The position numbers and the translations under genes are program-made. A stretch of 64,000 nucleotides of DNA from NCBI RefSeq assembly GCF_000419585.1, contig NZ_ATTH01000001.1, positions 270,005 to 334,004 of the forward strand, given 5' to 3'. How positions within the stretch are numbered: position 1 is the first letter of the stretch; every line of letters begins with the position of its first letter. This DNA comes from Salisaeta longa DSM 21114. GTDB lineage: Bacteria > Bacteroidota > Rhodothermia > Rhodothermales > Salinibacteraceae. Shown here in pieces: positions 6,639 to 14,915 of the stretch. Below the pieces are notes generated by a model that saw only the letters and a program-made list of their open reading frames with translations, was not told the DNA's origin and ran no database searches.

Positions 6639-9600
6639 TCAGACGTCGAGTGCTTCGGTGACGAGCTTCTCCTGCTCGCGCTTGTGCACCTTCGCCGACC
6701 CGGTGGCCGGGCTAGCGCTGGAGGGGCGTCCGACGTACCGAACGCGCTCCTCGCACGTGCCGCGCACGCCTTCGAGCAGTGCATCGAGGCGGGGGCGCAG
6801 GAAGGACCACGCGCCCATGTTTTCGGGCTCTTCTTGCACCCACAGCACATCGCGAGCCCCGGCGTAGCGCTCCAACTCGGCGCGCACATCGTCTTTCGGG
6901 AACGGATAGTACTGCTCGATACGGGTGATGGCAATGCGATCGCGCCGGTCGTCGTCTTCCAGCGCCTTCACAAGGTCGTAGTACACCTTGCCGCTACAGA
7001 AGATGTGGCGCTCGGCGGCGTCGGGATCGGTGGTGGCCGGAATCAGCTCTTGCACGCCGCCCTCTACAAGGTCCTGCGGCGACGATACGCACAGCGGATG
7101 CCGCAGCAGGCTCTTCGGCGTCATGATGACGAGCGGCTTCTTCTGGTCGCGCTTCACCTGCCGGCGCAGCGCGTGGAAGTAATTGGCCGGCGTCGAGAAG
7201 TTCGCCACGATCATGTTTTGCTCGGCACACAGCTGCAGGTAGCGCTCCAGGCGGGCCGACGAGTGCTCCGGGCCCTGGCCCTCGAAGCCGTGGGGCAGCA
7301 GCAGCACGAGGCTTGACGTTTGCCCCCACTTCTCCTCGGCCGAGGACACAAACTGATCCCAGATGATCTGGGCGCCGTTGGCAAAGTCGCCAAACTGCGC
7401 TTCCCACACCACAAGCGCCTCGGGATCGGCTACGGAATAGCCATACTCGAACCCGCTCGCGGCGTACTCCGAGAGGAGGCTGTCGTAAATAAGCAGCGTG
7501 GCCTGTTCGTCCGTCAGGTTGTTGAGGGGCGTGTACTCCTCGCCGGTTTCCTGATCGATGAGTACCGCGTGGCGCTGACTGAACGTGGCCCGGCGGGTGT
7601 CCTGGCCGCTCATGCGCACGGTGGTGCCTTCTTGCAGGAGGGTGCCCAGGGCGAGGGTCTCGGCAAACGCCCAGTCGATGCGTTCTTCTTCATAAAAGAG
7701 TGCATCGCGCTTATCAAACTGGCGCTTTAGCTTGCGGTGCACGTTAAAGTCGGCCGGCAGGTCGGTAAGAGCGGTTACCACGCGCTCCAGGTGCTCGCGC
7801 TGCGCGGTGGTGTCTACGCTGGGCAGCTGGGCATCGCCTTTTCGCTGCGCGCGCTGCTCAATGACCTTGTCGGCATCCTTCTCCTCCAGGTCTTTGGTCC
7901 GGTCGAAGGCCTCCTGCAGGCGGTCGCGGTAGTCGTCGAGCATCTGCTCGGCCTCGTCGGGTTCAATTTCGCCGCGGCGCAGCAGCAGCTCGGTGTACAG
8001 CTTGCGGGCCGACCGCTTGGCCTCAATCTTCTCGTACAAGAGGGGCTGCGTGAAGGTGGGCTCGTCGCCCTCGTTGTGCCCGTGCACGCGGTAGCACATC
8101 ATGTCGATGACGACATCTTTGTTGAAGCGCTGGCGGTACTCCAGCGCGAGGCGCGCGATGCGTACACACGCCTCGGGGTCATCGCCGTTGACGTGAAAGA
8201 TGGGCGCTTCGATGGCGCGCGCGAGGTCGGTGGCGTAGGTTGAAGAGCGGGCGTCGGCCGGGACGGTCGTAAAGCCAATCTGGTTGTTGATGACCAGGTG
8301 GATGGTGCCGCCCGTTTTATAGCCGCGCAGCTGGCTCAGGTTAAGCGTTTCGGCCACCACGCCCTGCCCTGGAAAGGCCGCATCGCCGTGCACGAGCAAC
8401 GGAAAGACGGCGTCGAACGACTCATCGTCGGCATCCATCGACGGATCGCCGGGGGCCGCGCCGCGCCGCAGGTTTTGCTTGGCGCGCACCATGCCCTCTA
8501 CGGTCGGGTTCACCGCTTCGAGGTGGCTGGGGTTCGAGGCGAGGTTCACCTCAATGGTTGCGCCGTTGCGCGACGTCACCGTTCCGCTGGCGCCCAGGTG
8601 ATACTTTACATCGCCCGAGCCCTGCGTGGTGCTCGGATCGATGTTGCCTTCAAACTCCGAGAAAATCTGCTCGTACGGCTTGCCAATGATGTTGGCCAGC
8701 ACGTTGAGGCGTCCGCGGTGGGCCATCCCCATGATGGCTTCTTGCACGCCGGCATCGGCCGCATCCGAAAGGATGGTGTCGATGAGTGGAATCATCGTCT
8801 CGGCACCTTCCAACGAAAACCGCTTGTGGCCGATGTACTTGGTGTGCAGAAAGCGCTCGAACGCCTCGGCGGCATTCAGCTTTTGCATGATGCGCTTGCG
8901 TTCCTCGTGGTCGAGCGGCTCGGCGTTGCGCATCGGCTCGATCCGATGCTGAATCCAGCCCTTCTCCTCGGGATCGGAGAGGTGCATGAAGGCCGTACCG
9001 ATCTTTCGCGTGTAGGCCTCGCGCAGGATGGAGAGGATCTCGCGCAGGGGCAGCACCTCTTCGCCGCCCAGCCCGCCGGTGATAAACTCGCGGTCGAGGT
9101 CCCACACGGTAAGGCCGTACGTGGCCGGATCGAGCTCCTTGTGGTACTGCCACTGGTAGCCCAGCGGGTTGGTGTCGGCCTGCAAGTGGCCGCGCACCCG
9201 GTAGGCGCGAATCAGCTGGAGGACCGCCGCCTGCTTCTCGGTCATGTCCAGCGTGTCCTTAAGCTGACCGTTGCCCAGCTGCGGGGTTGAGTCGGGCGTC
9301 AGGCGAAACGGCTGGTAGGGCACGTTCAGGTCGGCAAACAGGCCCTCGTAGAAGTCGTCCTCACCCATCAGGAGCGACTCGACATAGTTCAAGAAGGCGC
9401 CGCTCTCAGCGCCCTGAATGACACGGTGATCGTAGGTGGAGGTGAGCGTCATGACCGGCGAGACGCCCGTGCGGCTGACATCGTCGGGCGCGTAGCCGCG
9501 GTACTCGGGCGGGTAGCCGATGGCCCCGGCTCCAATGATGACGCCCTGCCCCGGCATCAGGCGGGCCACGCTCATCGACGTTCCAATCATGCCCGGATTG

Positions 9601-10400
9601 GTGAGTGAGGCGTTGGTGCCCTCAAAGTCGCTGATCTCCAGGTTTCCGTTGCGCGCCCGGTCGATCAGGTCGTTGTAGGTGCCCAGGAACTGCGCAAAGT
9701 TGAGGCTGCCGGCATCTTTTACGTTGGGCACGAGCAGCGTGCGCTTGCCGCGCCGCTCGATGTCGATGGCCAGGCCGAGGTTGATTTGCTTCGGTACAAT
9801 CCGCTCCGGCGTACCGTCATCGGCGTGGCGGAAGGTGGTGTACATGCTGTCATACGTCTTCAGGCCCTGCACAATCGCATACGCGATGATGTGCGTGAAG
9901 GAGACCTTCTCGCCGCCGACCTGCCGCTGGTACTCATTCAGCAGCTTTCGATTTTCGATGAGCAGCTTGACGGGCATGGTGCGCGCCGAGGTGGCCGTGG
10001 GCACGCCCAGGCTGTTCTCCATGTTCTCGACGATCTTCGCCGCCGGGCCGCGGAGCGCCTGTACGTCCACCGCGTCGGGGTTTACGTGGGGCGCCGAGGC
10101 CGGCATGAGGGGCGCAACCGCGGGCGCGCCATCGCCCTGGGCCGGCGTGGGGCGCGCCGGTGCTGCAGGAGAGGATGCGGTATCGGTTGTATCAGACGTT
10201 TCGGCTGATGTGCCGTCGCCGGCCGGAGCCGATGCCTCCTCGCGTGGAGCCGCTGCGGTGGTTTGTGCCGCCACAAACGACTCGTCGGGGTGATAATCAG
10301 CAAAGAACTCCCGCCAGCTTTCGCTTACGCTGTTGGGGTCTTCCTGATATTGCTTGTAGAGTTCTTCAATGTAGCCCGTGTTGAATCCGAGAGAGCTCAC
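6639..10400 (-). CDS. kgd: Fused 2-oxoglutarate dehydrogenase E2-E1 (KGD-type multifunctional enzyme)
   Basis: This giant protein of 1253 residues catalyses decarboxylation of 2-oxoglutarate in the TCA cycle. GTG at 10400 is preferred because it starts with the conserved E1 N-terminal segment (VSSLGFNTGYIEELYKQYQ); a TTG start at 10475 would add an unrelated 25 residues. Residues about 45-110 are an Ala/Pro/Asp linker. Residues 110-340 are an E2 acyltransferase catalytic domain with TSTYDHRVIQGAESG but no lipoyl domain. The rest is a thiamine-dependent E1, with motifs GMAHRGRLNVLAN, HVNGDDPEA, YRVHGHNEGDEP and LPHGFEGQGPEHSSAR. This layout is that of mycobacterial and corynebacterial KGD/OdhA rather than the separate SucA and SucB of most Bacteroidota. 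The partner lipoamide carrier must be elsewhere. Confidence 0.92.
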   Translation of the reverse strand: MSSLGFNTGYIEELYKQYQEDPNSVSESWREFFADYHPDESFVAAQTTAAAPREEASAPAGDGTSAETSDTTDTASSPAAPARPTPAQGDGAPAVAPLMPASAPHVNPDAVDVQALRGPAAKIVENMENSLGVPTATSARTMPVKLLIENRKLLNEYQRQVGGEKVSFTHIIAYAIVQGLKTYDSMYTTFRHADDGTPERIVPKQINLGLAIDIERRGKRTLLVPNVKDAGSLNFAQFLGTYNDLIDRARNGNLEISDFEGTNASLTNPGMIGTSMSVARLMPGQGVIIGAGAIGYPPEYRGYAPDDVSRTGVSPVMTLTSTYDHRVIQGAESGAFLNYVESLLMGEDDFYEGLFADLNVPYQPFRLTPDSTPQLGNGQLKDTLDMTEKQAAVLQLIRAYRVRGHLQADTNPLGYQWQYHKELDPATYGLTVWDLDREFITGGLGGEEVLPLREILSILREAYTRKIGTAFMHLSDPEEKGWIQHRIEPMRNAEPLDHEERKRIMQKLNAAEAFERFLHTKYIGHKRFSLEGAETMIPLIDTILSDAADAGVQEAIMGMAHRGRLNVLANIIGKPYEQIFSEFEGNIDPSTTQGSGDVKYHLGASGTVTSRNGATIEVNLASNPSHLEAVNPTVEGMVRAKQNLRRGAAPGDPSMDADDESFDAVFPLLVHGDAAFPGQGVVAETLNLSQLRGYKTGGTIHLVINNQIGFTTVPADARSSTYATDLARAIEAPIFHVNGDDPEACVRIARLALEYRQRFNKDVVIDMMCYRVHGHNEGDEPTFTQPLLYEKIEAKRSARKLYTELLLRRGEIEPDEAEQMLDDYRDRLQEAFDRTKDLEEKDADKVIEQRAQRKGDAQLPSVDTTAQREHLERVVTALTDLPADFNVHRKLKRQFDKRDALFYEEERIDWAFAETLALGTLLQEGTTVRMSGQDTRRATFSQRHAVLIDQETGEEYTPLNNLTDEQATLLIYDSLLSEYAASGFEYGYSVADPEALVVWEAQFGDFANGAQIIWDQFVSSAEEKWGQTSSLVLLLPHGFEGQGPEHSSARLERYLQLCAEQNMIVANFSTPANYFHALRRQVKRDQKKPLVIMTPKSLLRHPLCVSSPQDLVEGGVQELIPATTDPDAAERHIFCSGKVYYDLVKALEDDDRRDRIAITRIEQYYPFPKDDVRAELERYAGARDVLWVQEEPENMGAWSFLRPRLDALLEGVRGTCEERVRYVGRPSSASPATGSAKVHKREQEKLVTEALDV

Positions 10401-10490
10401 GTTGTCGCCGGGTCTTGAGACGAAAAAAGGTGCGCAGGTTGATGGTACCTCTGCGTTACGATGCGTTGCGGCCAAGGTTTTCGGCGCGCA

Positions 10491-10943
10491 CTATTTATCG
10501 AGGGCAGTCCACAAGGTGCGCATCGGGCGGCGCATGACGAGGTGGCCCGTGAGGAGCGACGGGGCATAGTTGATGAAGCCGTGGGCCGTGTACACGTCGG
10601 CGGGCGTGCACCGATAGAGCAGCTTGGCTTCGCGGCAACCGGTGCGGTAGTTTGTCGTCCAGATGAGGCCCACAAGACCGGTCGGCGCGTCGCCCACAAA
10701 GCAGTCCACCGGCTCGCCGTCTGTGCTGTGCGTGCCGTTGACGTACCCGTAGTTCAGCGGATAGATGATGGACGGATGCTCGGGGTGCGGGGCGTGCTTG
10801 GGCCGGTCGATGGTAAGGCCATGGCGCGTGATGAGGCGCTCCCACGCCGTCCACCGGAAGGCGCTGCGCAGCGCGTGGGTAAAAGAGGCCGCTTCGTGAC
10901 GGTGCGCGGGCCACGCGTGGAGAAGGGAAGGGCGGTTGCTCAT
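10491..10943 (-). CDS. Inorganic pyrophosphatase-like protein (divergent)
   Basis: The 150-residue protein contains the soluble pyrophosphatase signature region YPLNYGYVNGT...TDGEPVDCFVGD. The two tyrosines that bind phosphate are kept. In the usual metal-binding DGDPxD motif the central Asp is Glu. Around CREAKLLY the usual acidic ligands are partly replaced, although the Lys remains. It is shorter than typical enzymes (about 170-200 residues). Its ATG overlaps the stop of the upstream AMP-binding ligase by 4 bases (ATGA), implying translational coupling. A pyrophosphatase would pull an adenylate-forming reaction forward. Activity is not certain because of the changed ligands. Confidence 0.7.
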   Translation of the reverse strand: MSNRPSLLHAWPAHRHEAASFTHALRSAFRWTAWERLITRHGLTIDRPKHAPHPEHPSIIYPLNYGYVNGTHSTDGEPVDCFVGDAPTGLVGLIWTTNYRTGCREAKLLYRCTPADVYTAHGFINYAPSLLTGHLVMRRPMRTLWTALDK

Positions 10944-12499
10944 GCGGGCGGGGCATGCGCAACCGTTGGGTCGGACAACGCCCGCAGCGCCTCTTCCATC
11001 GCCGTGCGGTCTACATCACCCTTCGGGCGCGTTTTCCACTCCGCGGGGGCCATGCAGTGCAGCGCCACCACGCGCTCCGACAAGCCTCCTAGGTGCGTGG
11101 CCACGTCGCGTTGAGCGGGTGCTTCGGCGTCGGCGGGCAGGCACAACGCAGCGGCAACGTGATCGCCGTTGGGCGTGTACAGCAGGGCATCTTCGGCCGC
11201 CGGGTAGGCATGCTTCAGCACCGCTTCCCAGTGACCGGCGTGCACGAGCCGTCCGTTGGACAGCTTGAACGCGGTGTCGAGGCGGCCGCGGAAGTAGAAG
11301 CCCTCGTCCGCTCGTTCCACACGGTCGCCGGTGGCCACGGTGCGGGGCACCGGTTGGCGCTGCAGGCCCTCTTGTGCCGACCAGAAGCCGCAGCACGCGT
11401 TGGATCCCGTGAAATGCAGCTCGCCGTTGGAGGCTACGTCGACGGTGCAGCCCACCGGTGTGCCCAAAAAGTTGGGAGCCCACTGCCCCGGCGCCCCCAG
11501 CGTGATGCCCGGGCTGGCCTCGGTCTGTCCGTAGCCGACGCGGAGCTGTGTATCCGAGAGGGCATCGGCGAGGGGCGCAGCGATGGGTGCGCCGCCAACG
11601 ATGCCGCCCCGTAGCTCGCGCAAGAATGCGGGGCCACCTGGATGGTCGAGCAAGCGCTTGATGGTGAGGGGCACGGCGCTGAGGTGGGTGGCGCCCCACA
11701 CGTCGCGCAGGTGTAGCAGCTGCTGCGGATCGCGGCCGCCGTGGTCGTCGCGGATAAGTTCAGCATCGGAGAGAAGGGCGGGCAGCAGGTCGAGCACCAG
11801 CCCAAACGCGTGCGACCAGGGAAGGACCGACAGCACGCGGGCCTCCGCATGGTTCATGTGGGGCAGGTGGCTGGCCAGCACCGAGAGAATGTTTTCGTCG
11901 GAGAGCGCCACCCACTGGGCAGCGGCAATGGTGCCCGACGTCCGCAGCAGAAAGCGGGCCTCGGGGGTGGGCGGATGGGTGGCGGAGCGCAGGCCCTTGG
12001 GCGTTGTGAGCGGCCCGGCGCACCCTTGCGGCGACCAGCCGTGCGGATGCCGATCGCTGGCAATTACGGCAGCCGCGTCGGTGGTTTGCAGGGCATCGTC
12101 GAGCGGTTCGTTGGGCGGAACGAGTGCAACGGTGAGCTCCTCCCAGAGGGCGGCCACCAGCGCTTGGATAAACGCAGGCGAGGAAGGCAGAGCGATCACG
12201 ACGCGGGTGCCGGGGGCGAGGTCTGCCTGCCGGAAGGCCTCCACCCAAAGGCGGGCACCGGTCCAGAGCGAAGCGGCCGGCGTGATGGTGCCGTCGGCGA
12301 TGATGGCCGGAAGCGGGCGATCGCGCAGCCGGTCGTACAGCAATCCTTTCCAGGGATTGTGGTCTGATGACTTGTCCTGCGCGATCTCAAGCGCGTGCTG
12401 CGTGTTTTGTGCCACGTTTTCCTCCCCACGGGCCATCCCTTCGGACGTAACCTGTAATGAGCGGCAAGACCCGGTATGGTGTAAAGCGTGCTGTGACAT
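10940..12499 (-). CDS. AMP-binding (acyl-CoA synthetase-like) ligase with degenerate motifs
   Basis: The 519-residue protein has the fold markers of the ANL superfamily: a phosphate-loop region reading RTSGTIAAAQWVALS, the A5 motif GYGQTEAS, and A7-like TGDRVERADEGFYFRGRLD. The loop lacks the Gly-rich PK end of the usual TSGTTGxPK. Near the C-terminus the A10 region reads RPKGDVDR, so Asp replaces the usual catalytic Lys. It lies 168 bases downstream of and codirectional with a PYP gene, where 4-coumarate-CoA ligases occur in some purple bacteria. A role in chromophore activation is therefore possible but unproven. ATG 12436 is an alternative start. Confidence 0.7.
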   Translation of the reverse strand: MSQHALHHTGSCRSLQVTSEGMARGEENVAQNTQHALEIAQDKSSDHNPWKGLLYDRLRDRPLPAIIADGTITPAASLWTGARLWVEAFRQADLAPGTRVVIALPSSPAFIQALVAALWEELTVALVPPNEPLDDALQTTDAAAVIASDRHPHGWSPQGCAGPLTTPKGLRSATHPPTPEARFLLRTSGTIAAAQWVALSDENILSVLASHLPHMNHAEARVLSVLPWSHAFGLVLDLLPALLSDAELIRDDHGGRDPQQLLHLRDVWGATHLSAVPLTIKRLLDHPGGPAFLRELRGGIVGGAPIAAPLADALSDTQLRVGYGQTEASPGITLGAPGQWAPNFLGTPVGCTVDVASNGELHFTGSNACCGFWSAQEGLQRQPVPRTVATGDRVERADEGFYFRGRLDTAFKLSNGRLVHAGHWEAVLKHAYPAAEDALLYTPNGDHVAAALCLPADAEAPAQRDVATHLGGLSERVVALHCMAPAEWKTRPKGDVDRTAMEEALRALSDPTVAHAPPA

Positions 12500-12667: not shown

Positions 12668-13183
12668 CTATATTTTCTTTACCATGAACCAGTTGTTGCC
12701 GGCCTCGTCGCGGTACATGTTCACTTCCACGAGGGTTGGGCGCATCTTGTAGGTGTAGGTGTAGGTAAACGTCTCATCGAGCTGATCGCGGCGCACACCC
12801 TTCTTGAAGCGTCCGCGGAAGAGCCGGTTGTTGGTGCACGGCGCAACGTCGGTAAAAAAGTTGCGCCCCTCGGCGTCGTCGCGAGCAATACCGCTTAGCT
12901 CCGACTCGTACCGATTGAAAAACTGAACGATGCCCTCGTCGTCCACCTGAATGATGCCAAAGTCGGCGGCGTTGCGTGCTTCTGCAGAGGCATGACGCAG
13001 CTTCTCGCCCAGGTCGTCGTCAGCAAAAGAGAGCGTAACGGCCTCCGGTGCTGGGGCGTTATCGGCCGCGGGTGCCGCGTCATCGGCAGGCGCACCCGCT
13101 GCGTCCGCGGGTGCATCATTTGCCGAAGCATCGTCGTCGGCATCTAGAAAAGGATACGTGGTGTCGTTCTCTTGGTCGGCCAT
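12668..13183 (-). CDS. pyp: Photoactive yellow protein (PYP) with acidic N-terminal extension
   Basis: PYP is a blue-light receptor with p-coumaric acid thioester-linked to a Cys. The last 110 of 171 residues align with Halorhodospira PYP: DFGIIQVDDEGIVQFFN, GRNFFTDVAPCT, GRFKKGV and NNWFMVKKI. The chromophore Cys (Cys69 of PYP) is Cys116 in DVAPCT, and the Glu46 equivalent is Glu93. Tyr42 is replaced by Phe89 and Thr50 by Ser97. Residues 1-50 are Ala/Asp/Pro-rich and probably disordered. ATG 13183 is preferred over GTG 13189. It is cotranscribed behind a coiled-coil gene with a second PYP-like domain, 40 bases apart. No output domain is attached, so it must signal through partners. Confidence 0.9.
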   Translation of the reverse strand: MADQENDTTYPFLDADDDASANDAPADAAGAPADDAAPAADNAPAPEAVTLSFADDDLGEKLRHASAEARNAADFGIIQVDDEGIVQFFNRYESELSGIARDDAEGRNFFTDVAPCTNNRLFRGRFKKGVRRDQLDETFTYTYTYKMRPTLVEVNMYRDEAGNNWFMVKKI

Positions 13184-13223
13184 GGGCACAGTGAGTCAGC
13201 GATAAATGAGTGACGAGCGTTCG

Positions 13224-14915
13224 TTACAGCGGGCGTACGAACACCCAGTATACGTCGTTAGAGGCACGAAATAACTGTACAGCAAGATTTGTGGGGGCCA
13301 CGCGGGGGCTCACGTACGTGTAAGTGAATGTGGTGTCGAGCGCGCTAGCCGCCACGCCCTTGCGAAAGCGCCCGTAAAAGAGTGCGTTGTTGGCGCCGGG
13401 GGCCACGTCGAAGAAAAAGTCTGCCCCCACCGGGTCAGGGTCAATCATAAAGGGCAACTGCTGGGCTGCCGCGTTCACGTATTGTATAACACCGTCGCCG
13501 TCAAGTGCAATGGCTGCTGTATCCCACGCGTCGATTTCGTCAATCGGGGTATCAGGGAGGCGGTTGCACGCGGCTTCGTCTACGAGCGGTTCGGCCGATG
13601 TATGGGCTTGGGGGCGCTCACGTCGACGTTTCTCTTCGTACAGGTCATAGAGTTGATCCTCCATGCTTTGCATAAGCGCCTCGAAGCGCTCAGGGTCCTC
13701 GGTGCCCACAACCGATTGATACGCGTGCACCTGCTCGGCATACGTGTTGTTCTCTGCCGTTAGCGCATCGCGCGTCTCTTCGAGCGCTTCCTTCTCACGC
13801 TTCACCCGTTGGAGTTCCTGCTCTAGCGTGTCGATGCGTGCACTGATGGCCGTGGTATCGGCCCCCTCGGCGCGCATCTGGCGGCGCTCCTTATACACTG
13901 CATCTAATTGTTCTTGCATGTTATCGATCATCAAGAGCGCTTCCTCGAAGTTCTTGAACCCGCGTTCCGATAAGCGCTCGCGATCTTGATACATGGCTTC
14001 CAGCTGACCGCGCATGCTTTCAATCATCTGGGCGATATCATCAACGTTTTTCAGATCGTAATCTCCCAAGCGCTCGCGAGTCGCCTGCAGCCTGTCGAGT
14101 TGTTCGCTGAGTTGCTCCACCGTACTTATGATTTGCTCTGGGTTGCTTACTCCCAGTACATTTTCCAACTCTTCTTCGCGCCGCATGAGGGCCTGCAGGC
14201 GCTCGATACGTTCCGTGTCAAGCGACTGCTCCTCTGCGGGTTGTGCGCCGGGCAGGCCTGGCACATCGTGATCCGTCTCGGTTTCATCGCGATCTGTATA
14301 TACGTCCTCAAGCTGGTCGACCAGGTTGGTGACCATGTCCACCACGTCGTCCGTTGAAGAGACGCCCAGTTCGTTTTGCAGGCGTTCCTCGCGGGCGAGG
14401 AGTGTTTCCAGCTGCTCAAAGGTGTCGTTTTCCATGCTGAGCGACTCGAAGGGGGCGGGGGCCTGCGCTTCTGCTTCCTTATCACCGTACAGCTCTTCGA
14501 GCTGCTCTTCCATGCTATTGATCATCTGCACGGCTTGATCGCCGCCGCCAATGCCTTCAGCGCGCAGGGCCTCTATCTCATCCGAAAGCTCGTCCACCTG
14601 CGCCTGCAAGGTGTAAATCTCCTCAAGCGCGGCATCGGTTGTGGAAACGCCAAGGGCTTCGTGCAGCTGGTTTCGCTCCTTTGTTAGTTCCTTCACCTTA
14701 TCGTGCACGCGTTGCAGCACCGCGCGCGCATGGTCGGCGTCGGTCAGCCCGGTGGCCGCGATATGATCGGCCGTGTCTGCCAGCGACACTTCCTGCAGCG
14801 CTTGCACGGCCGGCAACACGTCCTCAGGAGTGTCTACAGAAAGGAGCTCTTGCAAGCGTTCCCACCGCGAGGGGTACCAGTCAGCAGGGGGAGCAGAAGG
14901 GGCGCTGTCGCTCAT
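13224..14915 (-). CDS. Long coiled-coil protein with C-terminal chromophore-less PYP-like domain
   Basis: The 563-residue protein is acidic and mostly coiled coil. Residues about 75-430 hold repeated units: LGVS occurs at 88, 183 and 254, and a motif of form M-x3-M-x2-QL-x3-Y-x2-(R/K) recurs at about 131, 194 (variant), 297, 329 and 414. Residues 455-563 align with PYP: IALDGDGVIQYVNAAA, DFFFDVAPGANN, GRFRKGV and DVYWVFVRPL. All three main chromophore-pocket residues are changed (Tyr42 to Val480, Glu46 to Ala484, Cys69 to Gly507), so it cannot attach p-coumarate in the known way. It lies immediately upstream of the true PYP. It may be a scaffold or dimerisation partner; the function is unknown. 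Confidence 0.8.
   Translation of the reverse strand: MSDSAPSAPPADWYPSRWERLQELLSVDTPEDVLPAVQALQEVSLADTADHIAATGLTDADHARAVLQRVHDKVKELTKERNQLHEALGVSTTDAALEEIYTLQAQVDELSDEIEALRAEGIGGGDQAVQMINSMEEQLEELYGDKEAEAQAPAPFESLSMENDTFEQLETLLAREERLQNELGVSSTDDVVDMVTNLVDQLEDVYTDRDETETDHDVPGLPGAQPAEEQSLDTERIERLQALMRREEELENVLGVSNPEQIISTVEQLSEQLDRLQATRERLGDYDLKNVDDIAQMIESMRGQLEAMYQDRERLSERGFKNFEEALLMIDNMQEQLDAVYKERRQMRAEGADTTAISARIDTLEQELQRVKREKEALEETRDALTAENNTYAEQVHAYQSVVGTEDPERFEALMQSMEDQLYDLYEEKRRRERPQAHTSAEPLVDEAACNRLPDTPIDEIDAWDTAAIALDGDGVIQYVNAAAQQLPFMIDPDPVGADFFFDVAPGANNALFYGRFRKGVAASALDTTFTYTYVSPRVAPTNLAVQLFRASNDVYWVFVRPL

Follow-up and report, generated by a model that had tools for sequence, protein, structure and literature searches.

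A chromophore-less PYP domain that terminates a helical-repeat rod, encoded beside an intact PYP in Salisaeta longa, is a candidate partner of that photoreceptor

Photoactive yellow protein (PYP), a blue-light sensor, signals through a light-driven conformational change, and a single-domain PYP must act on another protein. In the stretch of Salisaeta longa DSM 21114 DNA analysed here (64,000 nucleotides, referred to as the window), an intact PYP gene directly follows a gene whose product, designated CC-pseudoPYP, carries a PYP-like domain of its own, C-terminal to a long helical rod. The question raised by this locus is whether the second protein serves the first as its partner. The features concerned are as follows:

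13224..14915, minus strand: CC-pseudoPYP gene, 563 aa, a helical-repeat rod followed by a C-terminal chromophore-less PYP domain
13617..14879, minus strand: helical rod, residues 13-433, from AlphaFold2 secondary structure, autocorrelation, repeat consensus, hydropathy and charge
13227..13589, minus strand: pseudo-PYP domain, residues 443-563, from TIGR02373, VIA-align and Foldseek
13395..13397, minus strand: Gly507 codon, at the position of the chromophore cysteine (Cys69) in the alignment to PYP
12668..13189, minus strand: PYP, 173 aa, with Cys118 (=69), Glu95 (=46) and Phe91 (=42)
10940..12499, minus strand: AMP-binding enzyme, probable p-coumarate:CoA ligase (pCL), Pfam AMP-binding E 6.7e-24
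10491..10943, minus strand: small gene whose start overlaps the end of pCL; a short part of it is pyrophosphatase-like (Pfam 23.1 bits, under its cut-off)

The CC-pseudoPYP reading frame extends from an ATG at 14915 to a TAA at 13224-13226. The NCBIfam model TIGR02373 ('photo_yellow') matched residues 451-561 (E 7.6e-18, 64.8 bits), which is below the curated cut-off of 143.05 bits; since the intact neighbouring PYP (99.3 bits) also falls under it, this cut-off is a weak test of PYP function. The matches of a phmmer search against the PDB were PYP entries (best E 3.3e-17), and a profile built from PYP-like relatives gave CC-pseudoPYP 89.4 bits, as against a top score of 9.2 among 1000 shuffles of the domain. 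An AlphaFold2 model, with 24 related sequences as input, had pLDDT values mostly >90 in residues 443-563 (block values 89-98). PYP entries ranked top in a Foldseek search (1gsv, E 1.2e-11, target TM 0.89), and VIA-align superposed the modelled domain on the PYP structure 1ote with a Z of 20.1 and an rmsd of 1.9 over 120 aligned residues, compared with Z values of 11.9 or less for non-PYP PAS domains. Identity to 1gsv and 1ote was 36-38% over approximately 120 residues. The pseudo-PYP and PYP are of common descent. The C-terminal PYP fold claimed in the original prediction was borne out by the family model, the PDB matches and the structure prediction that it had proposed. Its alignment to PYP had covered residues 455-563; the core does align there, but the domain begins at about residue 443, and residues 443-563 correspond in VIA-align to PYP 5-125 with the PYP N-terminal cap included.

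A position-by-position check confirmed, as originally predicted, that Tyr42, Glu46 and Cys69 of PYP are replaced by Val480, Ala484 and Gly507. With these three residues gone, the pseudo-PYP should form no p-coumaryl thioester and undergo no known photocycle. Cys69 was absent from all 27 CC-type domains that 245 genomes of the same class yielded, and the solo PYPs of the set all keep Cys69, Glu46 and either Tyr or Phe at position 42. The pocket has been rebuilt consistently in nearly all CC-type members, with a small residue at 69, Ala or Gly at 46, Ala, Val or Leu at 42, and Pro at 50. Searches of the 563 aa with Pfam and NCBIfam revealed no output domain of the MCP, HisKA, GGDEF/EAL, PHY or c-di-GMP type, and hydropathy analysis revealed no transmembrane segment. 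The protein as a whole is acidic (120 D/E vs 49 K/R).

In the AlphaFold2 monomer the rod consists of about 13 helices of some 27 aa each, separated by turns of 4-6 residues; because the pTM of this model was 0.32, it does not fix how the helices pack on one another. Autocorrelation of the window protein gave lag 32 first and lag 7 second, and over the 27 CC-pseudoPYP proteins the strongest lag was 7. A total of 131 units from these 27 proteins gave the 32-residue repeat consensus ELGVSSaDdALeMIESMEeQLeDLYEEREAL, in which the Q, L and Y near the end had been specified in the search motif and the remaining positions are independent of it. The long coiled coil originally described ahead of the domain therefore stands as regards its heptad periodicity, but the helix is interrupted by turns and follows a 32-residue repeat. 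Rods vary widely in length, and the CC-pseudoPYP reading frames range from 354 to 1225 aa.

Between the CC-pseudoPYP stop and the start of the neighbouring PYP downstream lie 34 nt. This PYP has Phe91 at the position of Tyr42 in H. halophila PYP, and an acidic N-terminal extension of about 50 aa that includes the peptide TTYPFLDAD. Short N-terminal peptides of this kind (DLYSFLK, NPYSYLRED, YPFLDAD; DLYSFLK is the type II form), each leading into an acidic tether that is probably disordered, are conserved in PYPs of the same family (window 12668-13189, L041, L043, L045, L048, L049, L051 and L059-L065) and are not present in the PYPs of G056 and G519, two genomes of other families. The probable pCL gene follows PYP here, as its orthologue does in other loci of the same type. 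The ligase reaction releases pyrophosphate, and the small gene that overlaps the pCL stop contains the pyrophosphatase-like stretch listed above. The sole aromatic ammonia-lyase of the S. longa genome lies outside the pyp locus. Further along the minus strand (6639-10475), a 1278-aa reading frame resembles by eye a fused 2-oxoglutarate dehydrogenase, with what we take to be an E2-type acyltransferase portion towards the N-terminal end, the layout of the KGD enzyme of actinobacteria.

The co-occurrence of the two genes in other genomes, put forward as a check at the outset, was examined in the same 245 genomes, and the pair was found to recur. CC-pseudoPYP is present in 15 of them, salt-loving bacteria with a few relatives, belonging to three families (13 genomes of the S. 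longa family, G056 and G519). Each of these 15 encodes a Cys-bearing PYP as well, and PYP alone is present in 9 further genomes of the class. A same-strand PYP adjoins 24 of the 27 CC-pseudoPYP genes, of which 22 are directly upstream of it, at 93-465 nt from the start of the PYP domain, and 2 directly downstream. Two of the three genes that have no adjacent PYP are in S. longa itself, whose six PYP-like domains belong to the window pair, a second pair (locus L037) located 320 kb away, and these two solitary CC-pseudoPYP genes. At L037:6139-15407 (C1:598139-607407) the second pair is followed on the same strand by genes for a 279-aa coiled-coil protein, a helix-hairpin-helix protein, GvpG, a double ArsA ATPase and a GvpA-family protein. 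A scan of named genomes yielded five loci, all of them metagenome-assembled; the relatives that have names are mostly Bacteroidetes assembled from metagenomes, including GSL.Bin3 and a Salinivenus sp. In two operons PYP is followed by an additional pseudo-PYP, which is more degenerate and has a short rod (L044:11058-12230 and L046:11535-12605).

The pairs fall into two types. In type I, to which the window pair belongs, the rod protein is about 350-615 aa long and is followed by PYP and then pCL; most loci add genes for an aromatic ammonia-lyase and for a DUF427 protein. Type II has a rod protein of 780-1225 aa, a PYP with Tyr42 and a small divergent gene, c1; pCL or lyase genes are not adjacent. 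On the tree both partners are of the same type in every pair, types I and II never being mixed, and the pseudo-PYPs and PYPs lie on opposite sides of one branch (support 94/89). In a second tree the pseudo-PYPs form a single clade (support 100/97). Whether the pseudo-PYPs split off before or after the outgroup PYPs is not separated by the AU test (p 0.17); as the outgroup PYPs retain the cysteine, loss of Cys69 is the simpler reading. Within type II, pN/pS was 0.11-0.19 for the pseudo-PYP domain vs 0.10-0.23 for the PYPs, with the L053/L055 pair counted as type II, and within type I it was 0.20-0.44 vs 0.06-0.17. Judged from its sequences, the pseudo-PYP is an old, maintained and evidently non-photoactive lineage and did not arise through the recent decay of a PYP. 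A recent pseudogene was considered and rejected, given the old single clade and pN/pS values of 0.11-0.44.

In G519, c1, CC-pseudoPYP, PYP and a pCL/lyase reading frame lie together in one locus, with c1 divergent, and G056 has the same gene set divided between two contig ends. The 1023-aa reading frame behind the G519 PYP (L113:6306-9377, minus strand) matches both pCL (1.8e-126) and aromatic ammonia-lyase (1.1e-152) and is probably a fusion. The ancestral arrangement would have been a full locus like that of G519, the pair having been duplicated later. Losses have also occurred. In five Salinibacter-like genomes (G007, G012, G015, G020 and G022) the type I locus is reduced to a rod stub of approximately 95-105 aa ahead of pCL; the pseudo-PYP domain and the type I PYP are missing, and the type II PYP is retained with no rod beside it. 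The stubs are located as follows:

L069:9041-9329, L070:9786-10079, L071:9221-9520, and in L129 and L130: N-terminal stubs of the rod

Since it is conserved in five genomes, the stub is perhaps still functional. Another genome, G021, has a type I rod without PYP together with a type II PYP without a rod. The link between CC-pseudoPYP and PYP is therefore strong but not absolute, and PYP can exist without its CC partner, since the Salinibacter-like genomes keep the one and not the other.

The small gene c1 encodes a helical protein of 140-160 aa and lies divergently beside type II CC-pseudoPYP or PYP genes:

L038:11798-12217, plus strand (G000:C1:2302798-2303214): c1 of the S. longa genome, with orthologues at L041, L045, L058, L059 and L113

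In the class search it was present in 19/19 genomes of the S. longa family that have PYP and 0/8 of those that do not, as well as in both genomes of other families that have the pair. No Pfam or PHROG match and no convincing NCBIfam or PDB match was obtained by which to assign it to a family. It is a candidate third component of the PYP/CC-pseudoPYP system.

Because the two genes have been together for a long time, CC-pseudoPYP is a good candidate for the missing partner of PYP. Its role is best read as that of a dedicated non-photoactive partner or scaffold. That it is the partner of the adjacent PYP, through a light-dependent association relayed by the rod, is the leading reading because the PYP-fold model and the recurrence of the pair both hold, and we would put its probability at roughly 0.6. 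The joint inheritance of the two pair types, the constraint on the pseudo-PYP domain and the operons of G519 and G056, in which the pair precedes the enzymes that make the pigment, also speak for it. PYP, a small sensor with no output domain, would be the half that responds to light. The pseudo-PYP domain, as the tip of the rod, would engage PYP or a PYP-related surface, for which the PYP-related fold would offer a natural docking site, and the N-terminal peptide of PYP on its acidic tether may form a second contact. Blue light, in altering the shape of PYP, would alter its association with the pseudo-PYP, and the rod would relay the state of this association to a further component. Physical contact, light dependence and a downstream output are what we infer for this pair. 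A docking or signalling partner had been suggested originally; the fold and the pairing support a partner, though not physical docking as such. A tentative extension, which we hold slightly less likely than its opposite, is a two-protein photoreceptor in which intact PYP and the pseudo-PYP rod undergo light-switched hetero-association and c1 is the third component.

The G519 pair was folded as one chain, consisting of the pseudo-PYP domain, the intergenic stretch and PYP in the same frame with the stop codon read as Gln. This model had a pTM of 0.58, with pLDDT mostly >88 in both domains and no pairwise error map. A mirror-tree comparison of distance matrices gave r 0.42, a value as high as which was seen in 1/5000 random permutations. 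When partners were swapped within genomes, the true pairing ranked 22/256 and was not singled out by distance-matrix covariation, so the mirror-tree was dropped as evidence of contact and the concordance of clades was used instead.

Adjacency could also reflect co-regulation alone, and two other readings dispense with contact between the proteins. It is possible, if rather unlikely, that the pseudo-PYP is an independent PAS sensor for some other, probably apolar, ligand, so that light and chemical inputs operate without touching each other. A pocket rebuilt consistently, and not randomly decayed, in a domain under purifying selection is what such a sensor would have, and a functional change has been proposed for Ppr-PYPs with a substituted Cys69 (PMC9664959); the ligand is hypothetical, however, and direct adjacency to PYP in 24/27 cases is left unexplained. 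Less probable again is a domain that merely caps or oligomerises a cytoplasmic rod, with PYP next to it through co-regulation. The great length and variability of the rods (reading frames of 354-1225 aa), their 32-residue repeat and the clearly faster evolution of type I pseudo-PYPs relative to their PYPs agree with this, but the type II pseudo-PYPs are about as constrained as PYPs, and details of the PYP fold, the N-terminal cap included, have been kept.

An accessory function was weighed in two forms. We consider it improbable that CC-pseudoPYP helps to make holo-PYP, as a chaperone or loading factor alongside pCL: type I pairs do stand at the head of an operon with pCL and mostly an aromatic ammonia-lyase as well, but neither gene adjoins the type II pairs. 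In addition, a photocycle has been characterised for S. ruber PYP (PMC12826048), and the partner is missing from the Salinibacter-like genomes searched. Least probable of all is a gas-vesicle accessory that links buoyancy to light. The S. longa pair at L037 stands at the head of same-strand genes that include GvpG, an ArsA-type ATPase and a member of the GvpA family, GvpG is nearby in G005 (L041), and Rhodobacter capsulatus and Loktanella have been noted to carry PYP close to gas-vesicle genes (PMC3646047). GvpG scored above cut-off in just 4/27 genomes of the family, though, many genomes have the pair without it, and there are no such genes near the window pair. Gas vesicles as a general output were rejected on the count of 4/27, the linkage at L037 being real.

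The partner reading matters because PYP is among the best-studied photoreceptors, and a co-inherited pseudo-PYP rod is a concrete candidate for its partner, with the practical advantage that both can be cloned together as adjacent genes of an operon. If the hetero-association is true, a single-domain PYP would have its first native partner, and if CC-pseudoPYP binds, a natural pair switched by light would be available for research and application. CC-pseudoPYP would, moreover, add to the cases of a sensor's dead paralogue acting as its relay, as exemplified by pseudo-receivers and pseudokinases. The downstream partners of PYP have been described as not known (PMC9664959) and its signal chain as an important gap (PMC12826048).

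Functional PYPs (TIGR02373; H. halophila 1nwz and S. ruber Q2S0F2) share the PAS fold and N-terminal cap with CC-pseudoPYP, which differs in lacking Cys69, Glu46 and Tyr42 and in its fusion to a helical-repeat rod. Relatives of PYP that likewise lack Cys69 have been reported, with substitutions in clades A and B and in a PYP_like branch (PMC9664959, 2022); the multidomain cases in the main text of that study are methylobacterial Ppr kinases, unlike a rod fusion paired with an intact PYP. A 2025 survey of multidomain PYPs and operons covers only homologues that contain Cys69 (PMC12826048). Neither main text includes a coiled-coil or helical-repeat fusion or its pairing with an intact PYP, while the supplementary lists may include such sequences. 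The MCP-PYP fusions of the later survey resemble CC-pseudoPYP in having a C-terminal PYP domain on a long helical protein, but they keep Cys69 and are chemoreceptors; in CC-pseudoPYP, Pfam recognised no chemoreceptor, kinase or c-di-GMP domain. The Leptospira PYP beside a sensor-less chemoreceptor, and CetA/CetB (PMC9664959), also combine a single-domain PYP with a putative helical partner; unlike those partners, CC-pseudoPYP has a degenerate PYP domain of its own and no chemoreceptor signalling module. CC-pseudoPYP stands outside the functional PYP photoreceptors, as a maintained pseudo-PYP that most likely works with one of them.
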